Source: Branchiostoma floridae
Taxonomy: Eukaryota; Chordata; Leptocardii; Amphioxiformes; Branchiostomatidae
Assembly (NCBI RefSeq): GCF_000003815.2
Contig: NC_049992.1
Location: forward strand, 15,048,603-15,112,602
Direction of reading: 5' to 3'
DNA: 64,000 nucleotides
Every line of letters starts with the position of its first letter. Within the stretch, counting starts at the first letter, position 1. The notes under the pieces are model-generated. The model ran no database searches. It was not told where the DNA came from and saw only the letters and a list, made by a program, of their open reading frames with translations. A program made the position numbers and the translations under genes. Below, piece by piece: positions 4,701 to 64,000 of the stretch.

Positions 4701-6240
4701 GATCGAAGGTTGAAATACTATCTATCCATGCCATGATAAAACAAAACGTACTTACATATTGTACTTATACATGAGCTCACGTATTTTGGTAACTCTGATT
4801 TTTGATAGGCGAACTTGGTAAAACGAAAATGGCTGAAATGTTTAGCTAAATATGGAAACGATACTAAATATTGCATTTAAATAGTTGTATACATGCGCTT
4901 GCGAGCTGAGGTTTTAAAAAACGTTGAGAAACCTACTCTTTAGCATGGCGCAATCAGTCTGGTAGATTATCCAACCACTGAGCGTACTTAGATAACAGTT
5001 AATTATCATCTCAATTTGAATTTCAACGGCAACCTTTGCTTTAACTTCCAATACGGTGGTCACCAGAGGCATCATTTATCGCTCAGCGTACAATGAATTG
5101 GTTATAGTTTCAATTTGTCTAAAAATCACGCAGCCTTTTGACACTGTGATTTCTTCTCACATCCAAAAGCCTAATTTCGACTCTCGCCGACTCAATCCAA
5201 TCAATTCATGTAGCCGTATATGTAGCAAAGGGGCATGTTGATAGGAAATACTCCCACAACGACACGCCAGTCAGCCGTACGTGCTATAACCCTGAGCGCT
5301 GCATGCAGTCAATCCTGGGGCTGTTTAATCTACGGAGAATTTTCAGGTAATGAAAAGATAACGTCTGCTTCTGGCACCTGCGTTTTACCCCTACGTAAAC
5401 CCCTTAGCGGTTTCATAAAGTTCGGTGTGACATATACGAAACTCCACATATTTGCAGTGTAACGTAATGAGTAGTAACGTAATTCCTGTGAGATAAGAGG
5501 CAGGCACTGACCTAAGGCCTTGACGGAATGAAGTGATGTGAAGTGCGGCCTTCGGGAGGACTCTCGTAATAACATAACGTACCACTGAGACTTTATCTTC
5601 AGCATCTACGTCTTATGGCAGGTCAAAAGACACCGAAGTTCATTAGAATCCTTTACAAGGTGTTCCCCCCGATATTAAGATCCTTTGATGATGAAAAGAT
5701 TGCATCTTGCCAATAGTTACAAAGCCACCTTCTGGAGTGCCGAACTCTTCAGCTTACGTCCACAAAACAGGATCCTAGAATGTTTCTTGCCGTAATACGA
5801 AGAACGTATGTGTGTTTCTGTGTCTGAAATAGTGAATAAAGTGACCTCTGATACTGTTAACGTATAATATTTAGACAAACAGGGATCACTTTGCCTTTTA
5901 TAAGTGTGTATATGTCTTTTTGCATTTGTTCACACTTTACGTCCTACGGAAAACTTTGCACTCCTATGAATAGGGGGTGGGGGTGCTCAGCAAACTGACT
6001 TATCTGGCATTACCTGAGATTTGCTACCTACGAGATGGGGTTGTGATCTTTAGAGAAGTGTATGGCCTTGGTCGTCCACTAGAAAAACCATCCCTGCAGA
6101 AAACGACCGCATCTCTCGAAACCATGTCTCCGATATGATCAGATCAACCCATCAGTGCTGCGACCCGTGTCGTATTGAGGTCAGCTGAGTTAGTGCGGAA
6201 TGGCAGCCAGTGTGAAGGCTAGAAGCTTAGCTCCGGCCGC
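1731..6240. other. Intergenic, nothing recognised
   Basis: There are only short open frames without domains. A frame at 2570-2755 (minus) has coding-like composition but lacks convincing splice sites. Confidence 0.4.
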
Positions 6241-11037: not shown

Positions 11038-11102
11038 CTAGATGATCAGCTCGCCATTTTCCAGTCTTCTCTGTTCGAAGGCAACATTGGAGCTTTTTCT
11101 TT
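11038..11102 (-). CDS. Gene A exon 6 (probable): C-terminal cytoplasmic tail and stop
   Basis: The acceptor TTTTCATTATTTACAG is followed, in the phase required by exon 5, by a 21-residue hydrophilic tail E-RKSSNVAFEQRRLENGELII and then TAG at 11040-11038. The tail repeats the RRSNVA/SSNVA flavour of exon 5. There is no direct proof that this is the exon used. The alternative reading in another frame (RKKKLQCCLRTEK...) is longer but does not fit the phase of exon 5. Confidence 0.5.
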
Positions 11103-14100
11103 CTGTAAATAATGAAAACTTCAGTTAAGAATAAGGCATTCCTACGAGTTATAAATGGAGAAACTTCGACAACATCCACATGCAGTACATGCTAAGACAA
11201 AGCTGATGGCTATCTCGAGCATAAACAGGTATACGACGAATATGCCCAAAATTAATTACCTTTAAGGTGGTATCTCACTGCTCTTGGGGCACTGGCGCGG
11301 CACCGCGGGGTTCATTCAATGCGACAGTGTTGTGTCATTTTCGCAGTTTTTTTCTATAATTTACATATTGCGTGATACGTAAAAGTATGACAACAAAATA
11401 CACAAAACGTCAGAAAATTCTTTCTTTATCTCTGAAATTCGATGAGTAATCTTTCCAATTCCGCAGTGCCGCACCTGTGCCCCAGGTGCAGTGAGATACT
11501 ACCTTAATCCAGCAAGAAAGCACAAAGCCATCCGTTACCTGTTAAGAAAACCTGCCGTCTATGTTCTGATCCGCCCCCTTCACTTGTTGCAACATTACTC
11601 CGTCTCTGTACATCGCTATAGTAATACGTAAACTTCTTCCTCTCTCCGCCGCGCCGCTTCCTTAATAGATACACCAGCAGACACAGACATATCAGCAACC
11701 ACAGGCCGCCGGCAGCTGCACCACTGATAATGGCGACTGTTGTAGACGTGAAACCGCCATCGAGAGCTGAAACGTAGCAACAATACAGAATTATTTTTTT
11801 CGGCAACCTACAGAACCTGCTAGGCAATACTCTTGACTTCAATAGTTTATCCGAATCAGCCCGTATCCATCTACTATTAAGGGGTTCACCTTTCCTGTCA
11901 CATTCTACAGACTGCAGTATCTTACAGTTAACCCAGTTATATATTGTACATACGAAACGTTTTGCAACTACCTTGTAACCTGACTTATATGTAAATAGCT
12001 GTGAACTGTTTGTTTTGATATTGTCATCTACTTGTTCTTGTCAGTTATCTTATTTTTGAGAGGTGATGTGAATATTAGCGTACTGCTAGAGTGTAGTACC
12101 TCTCTGTCCTGTGTTGTACTTTGATGTTGAATAAATAAAGAAATAAAATTTAAAAATTAAAAAAAACGTAGCATGTTTGTACGTGATGAGGGCGCGGTCA
12201 CATAGGTCGTGCGATCGTCGTGCGATTTTGATGCCATGTGATTTTCAAGCAGGCCGTGACAGAACCACCCACCGAGATGAATTGAAAGTATTCGTGTTCC
12301 AAGACAGTTGAACTTTGCAGGACACGTACATTTTCGTCCTGCAAAACGCCTGAAATTGGCGATCGTACGACGTCGACGATCGCACGATCTATGTGACCGC
12401 GCCCTTATGCCCCCTCACATTAGGCGAAAATCGATCGAACGACGAGTCTGTGAGCTCTAAATTACGAAGAGGCATGAACCTGCCATTTCTTCGTCGGCAG
12501 CAGGGTCATGCCTCCTTGTAATTTAGAGCTCGCAGACACGTCGTCCGATCGATTTTCGCCTAATGTGAGGGGGTCTAATCTTCTGATTTTCTTACCATAA
12601 TATCTTGGTAAATCACTGGATAAGTGTTACACAAAATTAAGAGGAAAATATAGTTTCAGTTCAGTATGGACTGAATTGCAACTATATTTTGCTAATTATA
12701 TTGTAGGTATCATGAATACTTATGACTTAAAACAATTCGTGTACTTACGACTACGAGGTAAGAATTATTGTTTCTGATTAAATATTATTAGGCTCTAACG
12801 AATACCTTTAACTAACATTCAATCAATAAGCGCATGCTAACCTATAGTTTAAAAGATGGTGATGGAAAATTCGCCGGAATACCCGCCAAGATAAGCATGG
12901 CGTATCGTGCAAGTTATAAGTACTAGAGCATAGCATTATGATATATTCTTTCCACTAGGACGACGCTCTCGCCGTGCTTTCTCTGCGACCTAAGATTTGA
13001 CAGCAAAACAAATTTTATAGAAAAGAAACGAATCTTTCCACACTTTGTGTGTTTTGTTGTCTTCTCAGTCACACTTTTACGTTTTGATACATCCAGCGTG
13101 AAAATGAAGGTTACACATCATATTTAGGTCGCAGTGAGAGTGCAGCGCGATCGCCGTCTAGTGGAAAGGGGGCCTTACCGACGACGTCGACATGTGTATT
13201 TCTGGTCCGTGGTCCACCGATTCCGTTCCGTGCAGTGCAGGAGTATGTTCCGGTATCAGTAAGTGCCACACCGCTGAGGACCAGGGCACTCGTTCTGACG
13301 TCACCAACGGCTTCATCCGAACTAGCTTTAAACTTCAAACCGTCTCTAGACCACGTGATGTTCGGGGTGGGACTGCCCTCGGCAACGCAACGGAAAGTCA
13401 CATGATCGCCGACGGTTACTTCCACGGGCTCTGAGATGCTTGTAATCGAGGCAAAATCTGTGGAACAGGGCGGCAAACCCATTAGTGTTTCCTGTGGTAT
13501 GTAACAAGTAGCATTACGGGTATGATACATGTGCAGGCTTTCAGACAGTACACATACATGCTGACCTCTAGACCACACTGTAGATGAAAACCACACCATT
13601 TTGTATCGATTGATGAAGTGTCTTCTTTTCTGGTTCTGGCCAATTTACAAATGTCGAAAATGAAGAAGTGGTATCTGGAGTGGGGTTTTGCTGAGAATTT
13701 AAGTCGGTTCTTGCAGGTGGTTAGTCCGACGTCTTGTGAATTCCAAATTAAGTACTGGTACTTTATCTTCATTCGTATATCTGTGGTCTCGTAAGAATAC
13801 CTTCTAAGAAGTCGACAGGATAACATTATAATTGCCAAATTATGCCCAAAGGCTAATTGCAAAGTTAGACAGTGGTGATACAGTATACTTTAACAAAAAA
13901 TGAAAATGAAATATATGGATAAGTAAAAAGGGAAATGATATCTATTCAAAATATCTGGAGGGTTTGACTTCTTTTTCGTATGCAGTGGGAGAGGAATTTT
14001 TCAACATTTTCGTAGATAAATGGGTACTTCAATAAGTAGATTATGTTTGTTGAACGTTAAGATGTGAAAAGCTTGGGAAAATTTTGTAGATTTCTAGGAA

Positions 14101-17100
14101 TAGGTTTTTTTCAGGATTGTATTGTGAACTTTGACAGATAAAATGCACCTTGATGTTAACATCCAAATATAATTACAAAGCCAGAAGAGCAAAACATTTT
14201 CTGCATGGGTGCAGCGCCTGCGGATATTCTCGTGTGGACTTCATATTTCATAAACGATTCTCTCAGTGTTTTAAGTTTGGCATTGATAAATCACAAACAA
14301 GCTAAAATAGAAGATATTAAAGCAATCTATTCAATCGTTCTTCAGTTATCTTGGAAACAGACATCCCCGTGCCGAACAAACAACAGTCACTACAATACCA
14401 CCGAGGCAACGAAACAAGGATCGCAAAAGGACTACAGTGCAAGCCACAAAATGAACTGCTTCTTTTAGGAAAATTCCCTAACCTTTTTCGAAGACGCAGT
14501 ATTCTCTATTGTAAACGTATACTGGGACGACGCATTCGATAGTTACATCTATGCAATTGGCTGCTCATTACATTGAATAATGGATTCATTAATTGATTAT
14601 GAGATGATTTATAGGACAGTGGTGGCTTTTCTCCCGTGATAATACTGGTGGACTCCAACAAGCTACAAAATCAATATGCTCTTTTATGAGGTCATCAATT
14701 GTTCCAGGGTGTTTCGAACTATTTCGTGGCCAGCCGAAGTCCATAGGGAACTCGCCAGACCCATTAGTGAGAAGCGTAGATCAATGATTCTTTAATATTG
14801 AATCTTTGTCGATTGCTTTTTCAATGTTTGCCTCCAGGGAAGGAAACCATATTTTTGTTCCATTTTTTCCCCTTCACCTTCGTCTTATTTTGTTGAGGTC
14901 AATGACTTGGACCAGACGGCTGTCGCCATGGCAAATGGGAAAGTAGCAAGTGTCAGGATATAGCTAGAGGTGTCTGTTACCATATAGTGTGAATGCTATT
15001 AATATATTATATGTTTGGGAAATTATAATAATTAAGGCAGAAGTTTCTTAGGATAGACTATGTGCAGGTAAACACTGTATTTTCTTGCAAATGCTACCTT
15101 CTAAGTTTAATATTCATTTGTATCCCTAAGGAATATTGCACGACTATGTTTAAACTATATAGAACATCGATTTACATACAATGTACTCGCAGCTCGATGT
15201 GCCCCTCTCCAGACCGCACGGAATTCTGGGCGACACATGTGTACACTCCGGCATCCATCCTCATCACGTGACGAATAGTCAAAGATGGCGTCCCGGCATC
15301 TCCTCCGGAATATTTCCCCAAGAAGCTGCTCGCCTCGAGTCTCGCACCGTCTTTCTCCCAGTAAAGTGAAGTTATATTAGGCTTGGCATCAGTGACCTTA
15401 CACGCTAGGGACACCGATTCGCCCACAACTGTAACATACGGGTTCCGGGGTCCCACCGAGACCCGGGGTGCCACTGCAGAATAAAGATGAGTTCAAAATG
15501 CATTAAACCAACAGATAGTATCGATTACAAATGACCCTGCATATATTGCATTCATCACAAGCATATTATGTACATAGTAAAAATGCAGATCCCAATATGG
15601 TATCCAGGTATTCTATATATTACCAATGAAACGGCTGCCAGCCTTTATGAACAAAAGATTGAGGTCAAGGGCTACAAGATGACAATAACTTTCAGAGTCA
15701 GGGTGTGTAAAATGCATTTCATTGATGTTTTGGGTCAAGATCAGCTGCATGAGAAAGTTTAGCTAGCAATTTGCGTCAGATATTTCCCGTCTACGATAGA
15801 ATACCACTGTTGCTTTGTTTAGTCTCACTTTTGACAGACCAGCACATTTTCAATGACAGAAGAACGATCTATGGGTTTGAGGGTTTGCATTAGAGCTTAC
15901 GTTGATGAGAGAGGAAGAACTCGGGTGTGTGCAATCTTTTAGCCTTAGGCTTTCACTGCTTGTGCGCATTCAGAACAAACTACTGGAATAAATGGCAACC
16001 TCAAATGGATTCGGCTGTCATATCTGTCATGCCAGAATCCTTATTCCATTCAAAATGTCATATTCTTTCTCATAGATCTCTTTGGAGTCTGGCATTTAGA
16101 CCGTCCGGGAAGATAAGGGACATTGAGCCTCGCATCAAATCGTTTAAAGTGTCGTGCACATCCCCCATATCGTGGCGAAAGACAAATAGAGGATTCGTAA
16201 GGCTGTTCCAAATAATAGGTTTAAACTATTACTTTTCTGTCAGCGCCTGTATATCTGCACAGATTCGTTTTGACATGAAATGAAATAAGGCAAGCCAAGC
16301 ATGAGTAAGCCTACAACATTGGCAATAAATCAAGTCGTCATGATTTTATGTTCAATTAAAAGTGTTGTGTAACACGAACCCTGTAAAGCCAGGTGGATGA
16401 ATTTTTCTGCTGTGCCACGTTCGTCGGTCATGATTGACAGGGCATACGTGCCCTCATCTTCAGTTTTGGTGGGATCAATCCGCAGGGATGCCATTCCCAG
16501 AAGTTTTGCCCTTTCCTTGTAAGATCCGTATGCACGGTTGATGTTCAAGTCAGGCACATAAGAGAGAACGCTTGTCCTTTTCTGGGATGTGACGTTTCCG
16601 TGTAGTTTACTCCACGTGACGGAAACAAGTCTGTAGCTTGTGTCGAAGGCAGCTTGCAAAGTCACTCCGTCACCAAGAGTTGCCACGGCCTCTTCCGGCA
16701 GTGTAATAGCTACTTCTTTCTCGGCACTGCATACTGGAAGATGAAACGAGAAAATCGATATTTGCAAGCCATAAATGGTGCACACAGAACAGTTATAAAG
16801 TTGAAAGGAATATGCTTTCCATCATTGAGAGACATTAATGCCGCTAGTTTTCTATTTTGGCTTTAAGGTATGTGGGCATCTCGACCACCTGTGTCGCGAC
16901 ATCTACATATAGATAACACCGCACGTCGGGAAAGTGGCCCTTAACAGTCGTTCTTTTCCTCCCACACCAGAATCTCATATATGAGTGTCATCTTTTGTGC
17001 AATATCACTTTCTAACTGGTAATTTTGAGACGGGAGCCCCATTCTGAAGAACTCCATACGCGTAGGGATTTTTAGTAGGCGGACACTCTACAATGTCGGT

Positions 17101-20100: not shown

Positions 20101-22028
20101 CAATATGCTCAAGCTAGAACTACCCTTCTGGCTAACCGTATTCAGAGGGTATTTTGAGAGGCCGGCAGGCAGTAGTACGCTACCGGATGTTTTAATGCTG
20201 ACCAATATACGTACCAGACAAAGAGTAAAGTGCATTTATCTTCCCCGTAGGAAAACTATAGATGAGCATAAACCCATTTCTGAGACACTCCTTTTACAAA
20301 GTCAAGTCCATACCATTTTGCTGTGGGTCAAGCAACGATATGCAGCACTCAGCGCTCCTGAAACTTTTAAAAGTCTTACCTGAAGCGATAGATGCAACAG
20401 AACGTCCCTGTGGATTTGCAATGTAATGGATGACTATTTTGTGTGGAAGTTATCATTTATGTTTTTTTTTTTCTTTTATTCCTTTAGGTTTTGTCCGTGT
20501 CTTCTGCACATCATCTATGCGGATAGCGTTGGGCAGTGGTGAATATTCAAAATGCAGCCTCTCTATCTATTGTACTCTCTTCAAGGCAAGTAACATCCAC
20601 TATCAACTCCTGCATCTTGGAAGGTTTTTGAGCCGCCGGGTAGCGCTGGAATGGTAGATGGAATCATCATGCCATCTTGAGAGAGAAAAACACAAAGCAA
20701 AAGACGTATCCATACATGTTTGCCTGATGCCTAAAAACACAAAGTCAGTCTACATAAAGGCAAGATAATAGATCATATTCTGCCCTGGGTCAGACACAAA
20801 AAAAGCCTTAATGGTTCTCTTACCTTGTAGGCAAACCTAAATGCGTCGCCTACATAGAGAGATAAAGATGATGCATGTCGCCACATCTCTTGATATTATT
20901 AAGTAAATACATTTTTACATCTTAAGTTTTTTTCTTACATTTCATCTTCCTCGCAGGACGGCCTGTAGGTAAAAAATAGTTCAGCCCAATGGTAATAACA
21001 TAGTCCTTGAAAATGTTTTTCTACGCACACTTTAACATAGATGTATAGTCCTTGACATATACTTGATCCCATGAGCAGTGCAAAATAGGTAGCGACAATC
21101 CCCCGGCTGGTAACGATGTGGTCTGTGCGCTGTTTTCCTAAAGACCTGTGGACCCTGCGAGACCGAACCGTTACCCTCTACATTCTGTTAATTGCACCGA
21201 CTGGGACCCGGAATCAACACGTACGTGAGACGGGTTTCCCAGGCGGCACTACTTTCCACAACAATGTGGAGAAGATTTCCATCAACCAGATGTTCACACG
21301 AGCAGGAGTACTCGTATAATATAGCGACCCAGGTCGTGTTACATACAAGCCAGGTGTTATATATCGACACAGCCTGCTTACATGTGGCATAGGAGCCCGG
21401 GCTACGGGGAAACATAGAGTTATTCCAAGCAAATAGCCGGTCGAAATTTAGACGTCTCTGAAAAATGACGAACATCTACACCTAACCAATGGCATAACGC
21501 AAGGCTAGAGTAATCATCAGCTCATCCCATGACGAAAGATATAATAAATATTTTGGATCATTTTTAAACCTTTGCGTGCCTGATGTATATAGCGGTTGTT
21601 GTTGTTTTGGGGGGGAGGGGTGGGTAGAGAGAAATTTTGGTTCCAAGTCGAAAGGAAATACAACATCATGCCACGTTGATATAAAATGCAGTCGACATTG
21701 CTAAAGTGATTCTGTGAATGGTAATTGCGGCCGTGCAACATACCATTTTCATTGATCTCTTCTCCCACTTTCCCTAACCCCTGCAGATGAGAGTAAGATA
21801 TTACTGTGTCAACTGGAGAGACACATTCGATTGATTGTCGGAATTGTTAATTAAGATCATTAAATCTTTCCCATGGACAGACGAGAAGTAATCGAAAAAT
21901 AGATAAAAGTGTTCGGACTCATTACATGCGGCGATGTTGGGATAACACAAGGAGCGTAGTGACTTACCTTTCCACAGCACAATACTAGCCGCGATGTGCA
22001 CGAGTAGACTGGTGGTAGGACGTCCCAT
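11038..22028 (-). CDS. IgSF type I receptor, cysteine-less V + two C2 Ig domains + TM (gene A, whole gene)
   Basis: Six exons join in frame: 22028-21968, 16733-16380, 15473-15180, 13457-13179, 11766-11539, 11102-11038. Lengths 61, 354, 294, 279, 228 and 65 nt give 1281 nt, or 426 residues plus TAG. Every intron is phase 1, the usual pattern of shuffled Ig modules. Domain order: signal peptide (about 1-20), V-set-like domain (21-138) without the canonical Cys pair, Ig with C163/W177/C218 (139-236), Ig with C260/W272/C310 (237-329), TM helix about 340-364 followed by the basic stop-transfer RKRRGGERKK, and a cytoplasmic tail of about 60 residues. Potential N-glycosylation sites are N67, N171 and N269. 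It is probably a surface adhesion or recognition receptor; no orthologue is assigned. A partial paralog lies head to head at 58171. Exons 1-5 are strong and the last exon is less certain. Confidence 0.85.
11264..11507 (+). mobile_element. MITE family A, copy 1
   Basis: Terminal inverted repeats begin AAGGTGGTATCTCACTGC and mirror at the right end (GTGAGATACTACCTTAA). The internal core includes ACGTAAAAGTATGAC and GACAACAAAATACAC. TTAA is present at both edges. It lies inside gene A intron 5. No transposase is encoded. Confidence 0.8.
11539..11766 (-). CDS. Gene A exon 5: transmembrane helix and juxtamembrane tail
   Basis: A 228 nt, phase 1-1 exon for residues 330-405. After a short GGFTSTT linker comes a hydrophobic segment of about 25 residues (VAIISGAAAGG...LLVYLL, about 340-364) with a Gly/Ala-rich first half, then RKRRGGERKK, giving type I topology with the C-terminus in the cytoplasm. 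The tail has FTYYYSDVQRR; Y379 sits in a YxxV context resembling an ITIM core but with Tyr rather than S/T/I/V/L at -2. The acceptor is TACGTTTCAG and the donor is ACAG followed by GTAACG. Without splicing the frame would continue 12 codons and stop near 11504, a possible alternative end. Confidence 0.8.
11860..12165 (+). repeat. Probable retroelement 3-prime end in gene A intron 4
   Basis: A non-coding stretch ending in TTGAATAAATAAAGAAATAAA and a run of A (to about 12165). A polyadenylated 3-prime end inside an intron and antisense to the gene suggests a retroposed copy. The left boundary is a guess. Confidence 0.35.
12189..12406. mobile_element. MITE family C
   Basis: The left TIR GGGCGCGGTCACATAGGTCG is mirrored by CGATCTATGTGACCGCGCCC. 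Subterminal CGATCGT/ACGACG motifs are present. The interior is non-coding. It is located in gene A intron 4. Confidence 0.8.
12410..12574. mobile_element. Foldback MITE family D, copy 1
   Basis: A near-complete palindrome. The left arm is CCCCCTCACATTAGGCGAAA, through CGAGTCTGTGAGCTCTAAAT; the right arm is GAGCTCGCAGACACGTCGTC, through TCGCCTAATGTGAGGGGG. The short loop holds CCATTTCTTCGTCGGCAG. A second copy is at 37516-37704. Confidence 0.85.
12948..13174. mobile_element. MITE family B, copy 1, abutting gene A exon 4 donor
   Basis: The left TIR is CTTTCCACTAGGACGACGC and the right TIR is CGATCGCCGTCTAGTGGAAA, then GGGGGCC. Internal sequence (TTGTTGTCTTCTCAGTCACA) is homologous to the family A core in reverse. 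Its right end lies directly beside the GTAA of the gene A exon 4 donor. Confidence 0.8.
13179..13457 (-). CDS. Gene A exon 4: canonical I-type Ig domain
   Basis: A 279 nt, phase 1-1 exon for residues 237-329. It shows VTVGDHVTFRCVAEG (C260), NITWSRDG (W272, N-glycosylation site N269) and DTGTYSCTARNGIG (C310), the hallmarks of an I-set Ig domain. The acceptor is CTGTTCCACAG. The donor is GTAAGG at 13178, and a MITE terminus abuts it: the end of the element at 12948-13174 begins at intron position +5. This membrane-proximal Ig domain is followed directly by the TM exon. Confidence 0.87.
15180..15473 (-). CDS. Gene A exon 3: canonical C2/I-type Ig domain
   Basis: A 294 nt, phase 1-1 exon for residues 139-236. 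It carries VSLACKV (C163), LYWEKDG (W177) and DAGVYTCVAQN (C218), all Ig core residues with normal spacing, plus an N-glycosylation site NIT at 171. The acceptor TATTCTGCAG is good. The donor GTATGT follows the bases CATT. The SLTI...MDAGVYTC pattern and the short C-to-W spacing favour the I/C2 set over the V set. Confidence 0.85.
16380..16733 (-). CDS. Gene A exon 2: V-type Ig domain lacking the canonical disulfide
   Basis: This phase 1-1 exon of 354 nt encodes residues 21-138. V-set landmarks are GDGVTLQA (B strand), VSVTWSKL (C strand, W61), ASLRID (E strand) and DEGTYALS (F strand, D113/Y117). The B-strand Cys position is Ala48 and the F-strand position is Leu119, so the intradomain disulfide is absent. 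The only Cys is C22 next to the signal peptide. There is an N-glycosylation site at N67 (NVT). The acceptor reads TTCCAG at 16739-16734. The donor is GTTCGT, weaker than the other donors of this gene, but the exon length matches the gene B V exon exactly, which supports this boundary. Confidence 0.8.
18695..18920. repeat. (CA)n-rich microsatellite
   Basis: About 220 bases of CA repeats interrupted by CATACAC, GCTCACAC and similar variants, in gene A intron 1. The Thr/His-rich open frames across it are artefacts. Confidence 0.95.
19768..20008. mobile_element. MITE family B, copy 2
   Basis: CCCCCTTTCCACTAGGACGG at the left and CGTCTAGTGGAAAGGGGG at the right, with the same internal sequence as copy 1 (TTGTTGTCTTCTCAGTCACA). 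It is in gene A intron 1, with TA near both ends. Confidence 0.82.
21968..22028 (-). CDS. Gene A exon 1: signal peptide
   Basis: The ATG at 22028-22026 has a strong context, with A at -3 and G at +4. It opens 20 codons starting MGRPTTSLLVHIAAS, a short basic N-terminus followed by a hydrophobic stretch typical of a signal peptide. The exon ends in AAAG followed by GTAAGTC, a near-consensus donor, leaving one base (phase 1). This joins to the V exon at 16733 as a GTA codon. Cleavage probably falls near residues 21-24, in the first residues from exon 2. The gene B signal exon has the same phase and similar length (52 nt). A 5-prime UTR exon further upstream cannot be excluded. Confidence 0.7.
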
Positions 22029-55244: not shown

Positions 55245-55890
55245 TGTTTTTCAAGGTAGCACAATACTTCATCTACGTCGCCATTCTCAAGGCGATATTG
55301 GTTAAAATTGCATGCCATACTCGTTGGAGCACTTGAAAAAAAAGCATTCCCATGCAGAAATAAGAGCCTGCGAATTTTTTTCATGGTAGCGCAGTACTTC
55401 ATCTACATCGCCATTCTCAAACCTATTTTGGTTAAAATTGCATGCCATACTCGTTGGAGCACTTGAAAAAAAAGCATTCCTATGCAGAAATAAGAGCCTG
55501 CGAATTTTTTTCATGGTCCCATAGTACTTCATCTATCTCGCCATTCTCAAAGCTACATTGGCTGAAATTGCATGCCATACTCGTTTGAGCACTTGAAAAA
55601 AAGCATTCCCATGCAGAAATAAGAGCCTGCAATTTTTTTTCATGGTAGCACAGTACTTCATCTACGTCGCCATTCTCAAAGCTATATTGCTTAAAATTGC
55701 ATGCCATACTCGCCAGTGGAGTACTTGAAAAAAGCATTCCTATGCAAAAATAAGAGCCTGCGAATTTTTTTCATGGTAGCACAGTACTTCATCTACGTCG
55801 CCATTCTCAAATCTATTTTGGTTAAAATTGCATGCCATACTCGTTGGAGCACTTGAAGAAAAGCATTCCCATGCGGAAATAAAAGCCACG
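55245..55890. repeat. Satellite: five tandem units of about 130 bp
   Basis: Units start near 55245, 55375, 55504, 55632 and 55764. Each contains AGTACTTCATCTACGTCGCC, AAAATTGCATGCCATACTCG and AAAGCATTCCCATGCAGAAA with scattered changes. The minus strand frame is open across units and yields repeated peptides, which I take as a consequence of the repeat. Confidence 0.9.
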
Positions 55891-61200: not shown

Positions 61201-64000
61201 ACATAATGAATGATTTAATTTCTATGCCATTGTTTTTAATGCCTTGAACAAAAATGCATGAATGTTTTCTACCACATCCCCACACTACGTCGTTATAATT
61301 ATTGTAGGCTGGTTCTTAGAGGACGTAAAGAAAGGGCAAGTAATCTGTGCTTGACTGCTAACCAATATGATGAATGATCTAATTGCTATGTCATTGCTTT
61401 GAACGAAAATGCATGACATTGTAGAGGGTATTTTTAATCAACAAATGATGGACGATACCACCACCCACTATGTGCTACCCACATTCATTATTGATCACCA
61501 GTAGTTGAAGCAGCGTGTGAACATACGGCATCCATAGAGCACACGGGTGTGATAACAGAGTGAGTTGTAGCAGGGAAAAGATGCTAGCTCTGCAACAATT
61601 GTAACGGCCGCTCAATACAGGCCTAGGGGAGAGCGGACATGATGTATGGCAGCATGACCAGGTGCCCTTTTTGCTGTAAGCAGATCAAGGGACGATATAC
61701 GTTTTCCTGGACTTTTGTCAATTTCAGATTCACACGACTCATCGTGGTGCTATCAACCTGTAACATGCCAGCAACCCCATCATAAATCAAACTTGTGTTC
61801 ATGATGACTGTAATCTTGCTTCTTTAATGAATTCAACTTTACAATATACAAAATATAGCTTGTTTTCTTGCCGCAAAACGTAGGTGTTATCAACTGTAAC
61901 ATGCCAGAAACCCATCGTAAATCAAATTGCAAACTTGTGTTTTATAAAATACTTTTAAGTTTTTTGGATTCTTCCGGTTTCTATATTAAATTTGTGACAG
62001 CCAATTCTGAGTTGTGTGATTGCCCTACGAACGTCAAGGCTCTTTATGGTTGAAATGTAATTTTCTTGCTTGTAATGCTTGTTCAATGTAGAAAGAGATG
62101 AGAGTTTGTAAGATACGTTTTAAGTCATGATGATTGTGAGCTTACTTCTTTAATGAATTGAAATTTACAATATGCAAAACATTGCTTATTTTTTGCCTCA
62201 ATACGCAGGTGTCATCAACTTGTAACATGTCAGTAAACCCATCAAAGTAAATCAAACTTGTGTTTTATAAAATACATTTCAATTCACGAGGAATGTGATC
62301 TTGCTTCATCATCAAAATGGAAAATTTGCAAAGATCATATATTTTCTATACAAAGCATAGCTTCTTTTCTTGCCTCAAAACGCAGTAGTGTTTCCCATTT
62401 AAGTTTACCAATTTATTTTGTCTTCTTGGTTGCTTTCCTCTACCAAATTTATGATGTTCATAGTCACCTTAACTACGCTACAGAGATGCACAGGAAATAA
62501 TGGGCTGAATTTATTGTCCACTGGCATCGGTTCTCGATAGCCAAGCTCTACAAGAAAATAAATTGCCGGCGCGCGGATATCATAAAGCAGGTAAATTACT
62601 ACCATCACCCGCCCGTAGGTGATACTAAGTGCGGTAACACACGACCGAATGCACTTCAACGTGAAAGGCCTTCAATCTGCTTAGTCATGTTCATCAAGTA
62701 ATCTGTCTGTATATATTATATGTACATCAGAGCGTTTGATGAAGATAGGCATACGAGGACCTTTTGGGTTGCACTCTGATAAGTGTATGTCAGTATGTAT
62801 GAGTATAGGATATATTGGAGAATAATACTTCCATTAACTATAATCTAATACATAGACCCGCCACATCGTAATTTGATAGATAAACTAGACAGTTCAATCA
62901 AGTAAGAGAGGCAAGGCAGTGAGCATACATACATGCTATATATTTCAAACTTTTATATCAACAGGCTTTTTGAAACTTTGACGTGCGTTAGAACGTATTC
63001 TATGAACTTGTGAATCCAGAGACTCTCGCTTCACTTGTTGGATGTCCATCGTCACTTTATCTAACATTACATATACGTTATGTTTCTTAATCTAATGTTA
63101 CATATACGTTATGTTTCTTAAACTAATGTTACATATACGTTATGTTTGCAGGAACAGCGAATTCGCAAAGCCAGATTGGCTTGGCTCTACCGGACGATGT
63201 CAACACCGTCGTCGGGGACCCCTCCGTCCTTCCCGCCGACTACTCCACGGAACTGCCGGTGATTTCCATCACGTGGAGCAAGCTGGCCAGTGATAACGAA
63301 AAGAGAAGAAGCACCATAATGTCGTATGACCCTAACACTGGCACAGTGAACGCGTTTGGTGAGTACCAGGGACGAGTCAGCCTGACGGACAAGGCCTCCC
63401 TTCGCATTGACTCCACCGAACTTTCTGATGCTGGAACGTACGTTTTGTCTCTTCTCATAGAGAACATAGGCACAGAGGAAGGATTCATCACACTCAACGT
63501 CATGGGTAAGTATCTGCTTTTTACATAGACTGGTTCTATGTTTGAACAATACAGTGGCAACGATCTTGTGAACTTAGGAATGGCATTTTACACGAATTTC
63601 CTCACTTCACTCATGTTAAAATTGGGACTCTCTTTGCGCATGGGATTATATTTTTTTCATGTCATTCAAACTAATAGGGTACTTAGTGGTCTATTTTTCA
63701 TAAAAACATGTTTTCCAATTTATATCTAAAATGAAATTGATCCCGATGTACTAGTATGCAATTCTATGCTGACAATATCATCAAAGCTCATCTTAAGACT
63801 GTTTCATAAAATGAAAGATGTATGACATAAACCATAATATGGTAGCAATAAAAGGTGATATCATCCTTATACATGCAGACTTATTTCTGCTACTGCTATT
63901 ATGTTCAGTTAATAGGATGATAATAGTTAACATTAATTTTGCCCAGTGGTAGTTTTTTCATGATGAAATATAGATGTACACATACGAAACCATAAAGAAA
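58171..64000 (+). CDS. IgSF receptor paralog, 5-prime part (gene B, partial)
   Basis: Two exons lie in the window, 58171-58222 and 63152-63505, joined in phase 1 across a 4929 bp intron. Gene A has a 5234 bp intron at the same place. The predicted N-terminus is a signal peptide (about residues 1-17) followed by a cysteine-free V-type Ig domain (residues 18-135). The V exon donor is phase 1, so further phase-1 exons (C2-type Ig, TM) are expected beyond base 64000. No second Ig exon is visible in 63506-64000. Orientation is opposite to gene A, so the pair is head to head. The intron is rich in local duplications. Confidence 0.8.
61100..61415. repeat. Tandem duplication in gene B intron 1
   Basis: CGTCGTTATGATTATTGTAG at 61122 and CGTCGTTATAATTATTGTAG at 61288 begin two copies. 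Both contain TTCTTAGAGGA.GTAAAGAAAG and GTGCTTGACTGCTAACCAA and end with AAAATGCATGA. Confidence 0.85.
61749..62390. repeat. Three-copy repeat in gene B intron 1
   Basis: Each unit runs from TATCAAC.TGTAACATG.CAG through AATCAAACTTGTGTT and CTTCTTTAATGAATT to a TTGCCTCAAAACGCAG-like end, near 61749-61884, 61885-62207 and 62208-62390. The middle unit carries extra sequence. Confidence 0.75.
63061..63151 (+). repeat. 31-bp triplicate ending at the gene B V exon acceptor
   Basis: CTAATGTTACATATACGTTA plus TGTTTCTTAA occurs at 63061, 63092 and 63123. Only the third copy ends GTTTGCAG, forming the splice acceptor. Confidence 0.9.
63152..63505 (+). CDS. Gene B exon 2: V-type Ig domain lacking the canonical disulfide
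   Basis: A 354 nt, phase 1-1 exon, identical in length to gene A exon 2. It shows GDPSVLPADY (B strand), ISITWSKL (W59), FGEYQGRVSL, KASLRIDSTE (E strand) and SDAGTYVLSL (F strand, Y114), then the G-strand end GFITLNVM. There is no cysteine in the exon: Ala46 and Leu116 occupy the usual Cys positions. No N-glycosylation sequon is present. The acceptor is TTATGTTTGCAG, which lies in the last of three 31-bp tandem repeats. The donor is ATGG followed by GTAAGT. It shares the WSKL, SYxP, ASLRIDxT, DxGTYxLS and GTxExFIxL pattern with gene A. Confidence 0.85.

Follow-up and report, generated by a model that had tools for sequence, protein, structure and literature searches.

A probable family of amphioxus membrane receptors with cysteine-free V domains and, in most members, a coupled SH3 exon

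Gene A lies on the minus strand of a 64,000-nucleotide stretch of the Branchiostoma floridae genome (contig NC_049992.1, positions 15,048,603 to 15,112,602; hereafter the window), and its predicted product begins with a V-type immunoglobulin (Ig) domain devoid of the canonical disulfide. Our analysis indicated that gene A probably belongs to a family of receptors with cysteine-free V domains, most of which seem to carry a cytoplasmic SH3 domain, and that gene A itself appears to be an SH3-less member. The sequence pattern of the V domains, the order of the exons, and the genomic coupling of V exons to SH3 exons, all read directly in the genome, form the basis of this proposal.

The preliminary description had placed a cysteine-free V domain at 16380..16733, with Ala48 and Leu119 at the cysteine positions and the motifs TWSKL and DxGTY retained, and the coordinates, residues, and motifs all proved right. 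The V exon on the minus strand consists of 118 open codons (protein residues 21-138) between the acceptor TTCCAG and the donor GTTCGT, both ends being in phase 1. Ala48 (codon GCT, 16651..16653) and Leu119 (codon CTG, 16438..16440) correspond to Ala28 on strand B and Leu99 on strand F of the predicted fold in V-exon numbering; the B–F disulfide cysteines, usual but not obligatory for V-set domains, are thus not present in gene A, and Trp41 (in TWSKL) and DEGTYAL are both kept. Pfam V-set (PF07686) matched the domain in frame with an E-value of 5.5e-9 and a score of 36.6 bits, above the curated threshold of 26 bits, and all of the 22 family members scanned gave a V-set match at E ≤ 0.01. As had been anticipated for residues 21-138, structure prediction with AlphaFold2 (AF2) returned a V-type beta sandwich, for which the nectins and the poliovirus-receptor family were the top fold match.

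A tBLASTn search of the 513-Mb, 431-contig genome with the gene A V exon yielded 54 places, 32 of which were on the contig that holds the window (labelled C14), and two other family members used as queries gave 63 and 58 places, mostly those already found. After 7 fragments were set aside, both cysteines were absent in 45 of 47 full-length V exons, the remaining two, Cys-bearing, being weak matches on C1. Together with one further exon, the 45 formed a set of 46 cysteine-free rows without a single Cys beyond residue 5. The absence of the disulfide, which had been viewed as the special design of one receptor, therefore turned out to be the state of the whole gene family (46/46 aligned cysteine-free rows), and a one-gene oddity was rejected, since dozens of family V exons in the genome share this state. 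Because it recurs in this way, chance or assembly error is very unlikely. A sequencing, assembly, or frame artefact, for which no supporting evidence was found, was likewise dismissed as extremely improbable in view of the 46 rows, the in-frame Pfam match, and a window that contains no N. At the sequence level, the cysteine-free Ig domain of gene A was hence confirmed as real.

To sample Cys-bearing V domains, the genome was scanned with the Pfam V-set profile (120 matches among 150 scored of 694 candidates), and 40 of the matching places were picked, nearly all of them outside the tBLASTn places. In the 39 usable ones (L069, translated in a wrong frame, was left out), 37 V domains had both cysteines, one was cysteine-free, and one had the F-strand cysteine alone; the two states were accordingly nearly all-or-none in this set. 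The V domain with the single cysteine (L099, C17:13373846-13374151) has Trp at the B position.

Within the 46 cysteine-free rows, the B position was occupied by Ala (37), Val (6), Gly (2), or Ser (1), and the F position by Leu (33), Ile (5), Met (4), Val (3), or Gln (1), and Trp41, Arg75, Asp93, and Gly95 were invariant. In gene A, Arg75 and Asp93 are encoded on the minus strand by AGG (16510..16512) and GAT (16456..16458), respectively. The Arg-Asp pair was also present in 33 of the 37 Cys-bearing rows and is therefore common in V domains, merely being fixed in the cysteine-free family. It is probable that the V fold is held without a disulfide by the small residue on strand B and the large hydrophobic residue on strand F packing beside the invariant Trp, and that the conserved Arg-Asp salt bridge would help to hold it, as in the N-domains of CEACAMs.

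In a tree of 84 V rows from which the two Cys columns had been removed, the cysteine-free label required 2 changes, and two long-branch Cys-bearing rows sat among the cysteine-free ones. Removal of six rows flagged as long still left 2 changes, and a single clade of cysteine-free rows was not rejected (approximately unbiased test, p = 0.42). A clustered, expanded family, lineage-specific to amphioxus, in which recognition falls to the distal V domain and a built-in SH3 domain recruits proline-rich partners, gene A being a member without SH3, would be the most economical account. In the amphioxus and lancelet literature, covered in part through titles and abstract openings, we recognised no description of this receptor family.

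The second characteristic of the family is its SH3 exon. A conserved SH3 exon downstream of the transmembrane (TM) exon was first seen in the loci L009 and L011 (Pfam SH3_9, E 7.6e-18), and 7 of the 20 loci first fetched, at about 9.8 kb each, contained one. With four of these 20 loci extended (L010, L012, L020, L023) and one locus on C16 fetched (L106), the number of loci with the SH3 exon rose to 12 (these five and L009, L011, L013, L016, L017, L027, and L028), and in each of them the exon follows an AG acceptor in phase 1. A TM exon was identified in two loci besides, namely gene A, where no SH3 exon was located, and L022, which was read over too short a stretch downstream, making 14 loci in all; gene A apart, every TM-exon locus followed far enough downstream (12/12) has the SH3 exon.

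This coupling extended to the whole genome, in which SH3 matches were located at 70 places. The V places considered numbered 55, that is, the 54 tBLASTn places and one on C2, and they include two fragments (C14:15896649 and C14:15897375) that are both paired with one SH3. For 42 of these 55, an SH3 match on the same strand was reached in the next 50 kb downstream before any further listed V exon. When the limit was set at 17 kb, such a match was assigned to 32 of the 55, and the opposite strand and the upstream side gave only 2 each. By contig, the coupling amounted to 31/32 on C14, 5/5 on C16, 4/10 on C15, 1/2 on C2, 1/1 on C18, and 0/1 on C9, and to 0/4 at the Cys-bearing places on C1 and C7. 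The window itself contains a second cysteine-free V exon of the same family on the plus strand (63152..63505; the ends were set by eye, and another AG nearby is a possible acceptor), and its nearest same-strand SH3 exon lies 14.7 kb downstream, beyond the window.

The SH3 domain of L016 matched the C-terminal part of GRB2 best among PDB entries (E 5.9e-14). In addition, 7 of the 13 C14 TM exons seen (L013, L016, L017, L020, L023, L027, and L028) encode a juxtamembrane FYYNM, where gene A has YYYSDV. FYYNM is reminiscent of the YxNM of CD28-type receptors, and YxNM would suit the SH2 domains of GRB2 and PI3K.

The model of gene A comprises six exons on the minus strand, joined at phase 1 by splice signals, in which all coding exons are open and the frame closes to give a product of 426 residues. 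The coding part of exon 1 (21968..22028), consisting of the ATG and the signal peptide MGRPTTSLLVHIAASIVLWK, ends in phase 1 at a GTAAGT donor, and its join to the V exon is predicted from splice signals. Exons 3 (15180..15473) and 4 (13179..13457) encode I-set domains 2 and 3 (D2 and D3), each with both cysteines kept. Exon 5 (11539..11766), whose exact donor is putative, encodes the TM helix and the juxtamembrane KKFTYYYSDV, and exon 6 (11038..11102), predicted from splice signals alone, encodes the short tail ERKSSNVAFEQRRLENGELII and the stop, occupying the place of the SH3 exon in the paralogues. Gene A would accordingly encode a type I membrane receptor with a signal peptide, a cysteine-free V domain, two I-set domains, a TM helix, and a short tail. 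A dispersed repeat at 11264-11505, similar to stretches in many fetched loci, lies between the TM exon and the tail.

Gene A is the sole V place on C14 (1/32) without a downstream SH3: no SH3 profile signal was obtained in the window and no same-strand SH3 was located within 50 kb, and tBLASTn with the SH3 domain gave weak, scattered matches in the window, with a best E-value of 0.06. Weak matches (E 0.08 and up) were also obtained on the minus strand at 55262-55823, where a short peptide-like unit, ENGDVDEVL, is repeated, and these were taken as chance. No canonical immunoreceptor tyrosine-based inhibitory motif was recognised by eye in the predicted tail of gene A; the tails of the paralogues were read in part. 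Gene A may have lost or replaced its SH3 exon, in which case it could act as a decoy or as a partner subunit. Alternatively, it might be a decaying copy on its way to becoming a pseudogene, whose features require no function. Its singular lack of an SH3 among the 32 C14 places, its non-consensus V donor (GTTCGT), and the dispersed repeat between the TM exon and the tail would all suit such decay, which we regard as unlikely given the open coding exons, the intact core residues, and a frame of 426 codons that closes.

The two normal Ig domains reported to follow the V domain were also verified, canonical cysteines being found in both. Among the sequences collected, 11 of 18 for D2 and 10 of 14 for D3 were aligned, and both cysteines were kept in every aligned row (11/11 and 10/10, respectively); in the genes read, the loss of Cys is restricted to the V domain. 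Pfam I-set was the best or nearly the best match for D2 and D3, and the exon order read in the fetched loci indicated that gene A and its paralogues have a common ectodomain architecture. For the 14 genes with all three domains, mean identity was lowest in the V domain (45% vs 57% in D2 and 53% in D3). In two pairs of paralogues, L009 vs L011 (near 4741-5103) and L022 vs L030, the V exons diverged at their start and were almost the same over the stretch that encodes strands B through G, and these tracts could reflect gene conversion. A separate pair, L024 on C9 and L026 on C14, was 91-93% alike over about 5 kb, which would represent either duplication of a family gene between chromosomes or an assembly duplicate.

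Several observations weigh against a family of SH3-coupled receptors as proposed above. Every exon join, in gene A as well as in the paralogues, was read from splice signals alone, the link from TM to SH3 exon in the paralogues was judged by the acceptor rather than donor by donor, and the V donor of gene A (GTTCGT) deviates from the usual GTAAGT. No SH3 was assigned to 13 of the 55 V places (six on C15, the four Cys-bearing places on C1 and C7, gene A on C14, and a single place on each of C9 and C2), and some of the pairings, spanning 20-37 kb, are less sure. Likewise, a 9-kb locus on C15 (L107) contained no detected TM or SH3 exon, and no D2 exon was found within 7 kb past the second V exon of the window, nor did the 7 kb that follow the window reveal any other exon of that gene. 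The AF2 prediction took just two sequences as input, and the predicted local distance difference test (pLDDT) scores of its five models were 73.1, 66.4, 59.9, 51.2, and 38.2. The ratio of nonsynonymous to synonymous substitution rates (Ka/Ks) was computed for 91 pairs of V exons; 60 were saturated at synonymous sites, the median of the other 31 was 0.29, and there is therefore no sign of positive selection. Finally, in a 27-row entropy set from which near-duplicates had been dropped, with faces assigned from strand alternation, the excess variability of the GFCC' face over the ABED face did not reach significance (p = 0.14). The V domain of gene A, suggested at the outset to be a dedicated ligand-binding domain, would presumably bind a ligand.

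For the SH3-coupled family, we envisage that the membrane-distal V domain would most likely make weak homophilic or heterophilic contacts, the GFCC' face being the expected site. Provided that the predicted splicing holds, clustering of most members would signal through the cytoplasmic SH3 domain of the receptor itself, which may directly recruit proline-rich partners of the actin or Ras pathways. A transmembrane Ig receptor with its own SH3 would, if true, connect recognition at the cell surface directly to adaptor signalling. It is possible, and we propose it only tentatively, that cephalochordates evolved, independently of CEACAM and CD2, a set of disulfide-free, conversion-shuffled V receptors with a built-in GRB2-like SH3, in which members like gene A would be natural decoys for, or regulators of, those that bear SH3. 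Such a receptor would be fused to its own adaptor, and no docking site with phosphorylated tyrosine would be needed for clustering of its V domains to signal. Vertebrate CEACAMs already provide sets of V domains that lack the disulfide; the dozens found here in one invertebrate chordate genome, every aligned one cysteine-free and with the shared Trp and Arg-Asp core, offer a natural test of the residues that replace a disulfide, and the family is relevant to the number of times that CEACAM-like recognition evolved among chordates.

Among known systems, the nectins and the poliovirus-receptor family resemble gene A in having a V domain, two further Ig domains, and a TM segment. A plain V-Ig-Ig family of this kind, serving epithelial or neural cell-cell adhesion without any immune or allorecognition role, in which the loss of Cys tunes only the stability of the V domain, appears rather doubtful. 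Nectin V domains carry the canonical disulfide, which the gene A V domain lacks, and, in our judgement, adhesion genes with a housekeeping role would not normally occur in dozens of clustered copies that show tracts resembling gene conversion. Gene A further differs from nectins in that I-set is the top or nearly the top Pfam match of D2 and D3, and in that no C-terminus of the nectin type is seen in its predicted tail.

HEPACAM is another protein whose V domain has no canonical cysteines; it was not among the PDB matches listed, and no comparison aimed at it was made. CD2/SLAM receptors have a two-domain ectodomain and tails with immunoreceptor tyrosine-based switch motifs, whereas in gene A the TM exon comes after three Ig exons. 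CD2 is a named exception to the B–F disulfide (PMC12051499). Adaptors of the GRB2 type differ in being soluble, whereas the amphioxus SH3 exon is seemingly part of a membrane receptor gene.

The resemblance to CEACAMs comprises a cysteine-free N-terminal V domain, Cys-bearing Ig domains behind it, a TM segment, and expansion of the family. It seems improbable to us that these amphioxus genes truly belong to the CEACAM/CD2 lineage, with a cysteine-free V domain inherited from a chordate ancestor, even though the shared features, including the Arg-Asp pair, would accord with such descent. The sequence searches were mixed. With a single sequence (phmmer), CEACAM1 (3r4d_A) was the best PDB match (E 0.0013), and in the PDB profile search CEACAM chains ranked 2, 4, and 5 by whole-chain E-value, CD48 and 2B4 also being among the matches listed. 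The first rank in that search was taken by JAML, whose V domain has cysteines, and, among the single-domain chains listed, the Cys-bearing nectin-1 D1 (44.0 bits) outscored every N-only CEACAM (CEACAM15, 38.7; CEACAM6, 35.5; CEACAM1 chains, 33 or less). Moreover, the SH3 exon coupled to most amphioxus paralogues sets them apart, and to our knowledge an SH3 tail has no counterpart among CEACAMs. A 2014 survey also reports that CEA homologues were not detected in cephalochordates (PMC4079198). Of the preliminary interpretation, the predicted V fold, the Ala/Leu pair, the CEACAM-like pattern, and the two Ig domains stood, and the single-receptor design did not; the mixed searches did not establish a specific kinship with CEACAM or CD2. 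In that pattern, hydrophobic Ala and Leu take the place of the disulfide, and Leu occupies the F position both in CEACAM1 (chain 9gh5_D) and, as Leu119, in gene A. CEACAM1 is described as using an Arg-Asp salt bridge (R64:D82) in place of the disulfide (PMC7979749, PMC4079198), and the amphioxus family carries an Arg-Asp pair in 46/46 cysteine-free rows, a likeness that is not exclusive to them, as the Cys-bearing rows showed. Without any claim of membership, CEACAMs would seem to be the closest analogue in how this family works.
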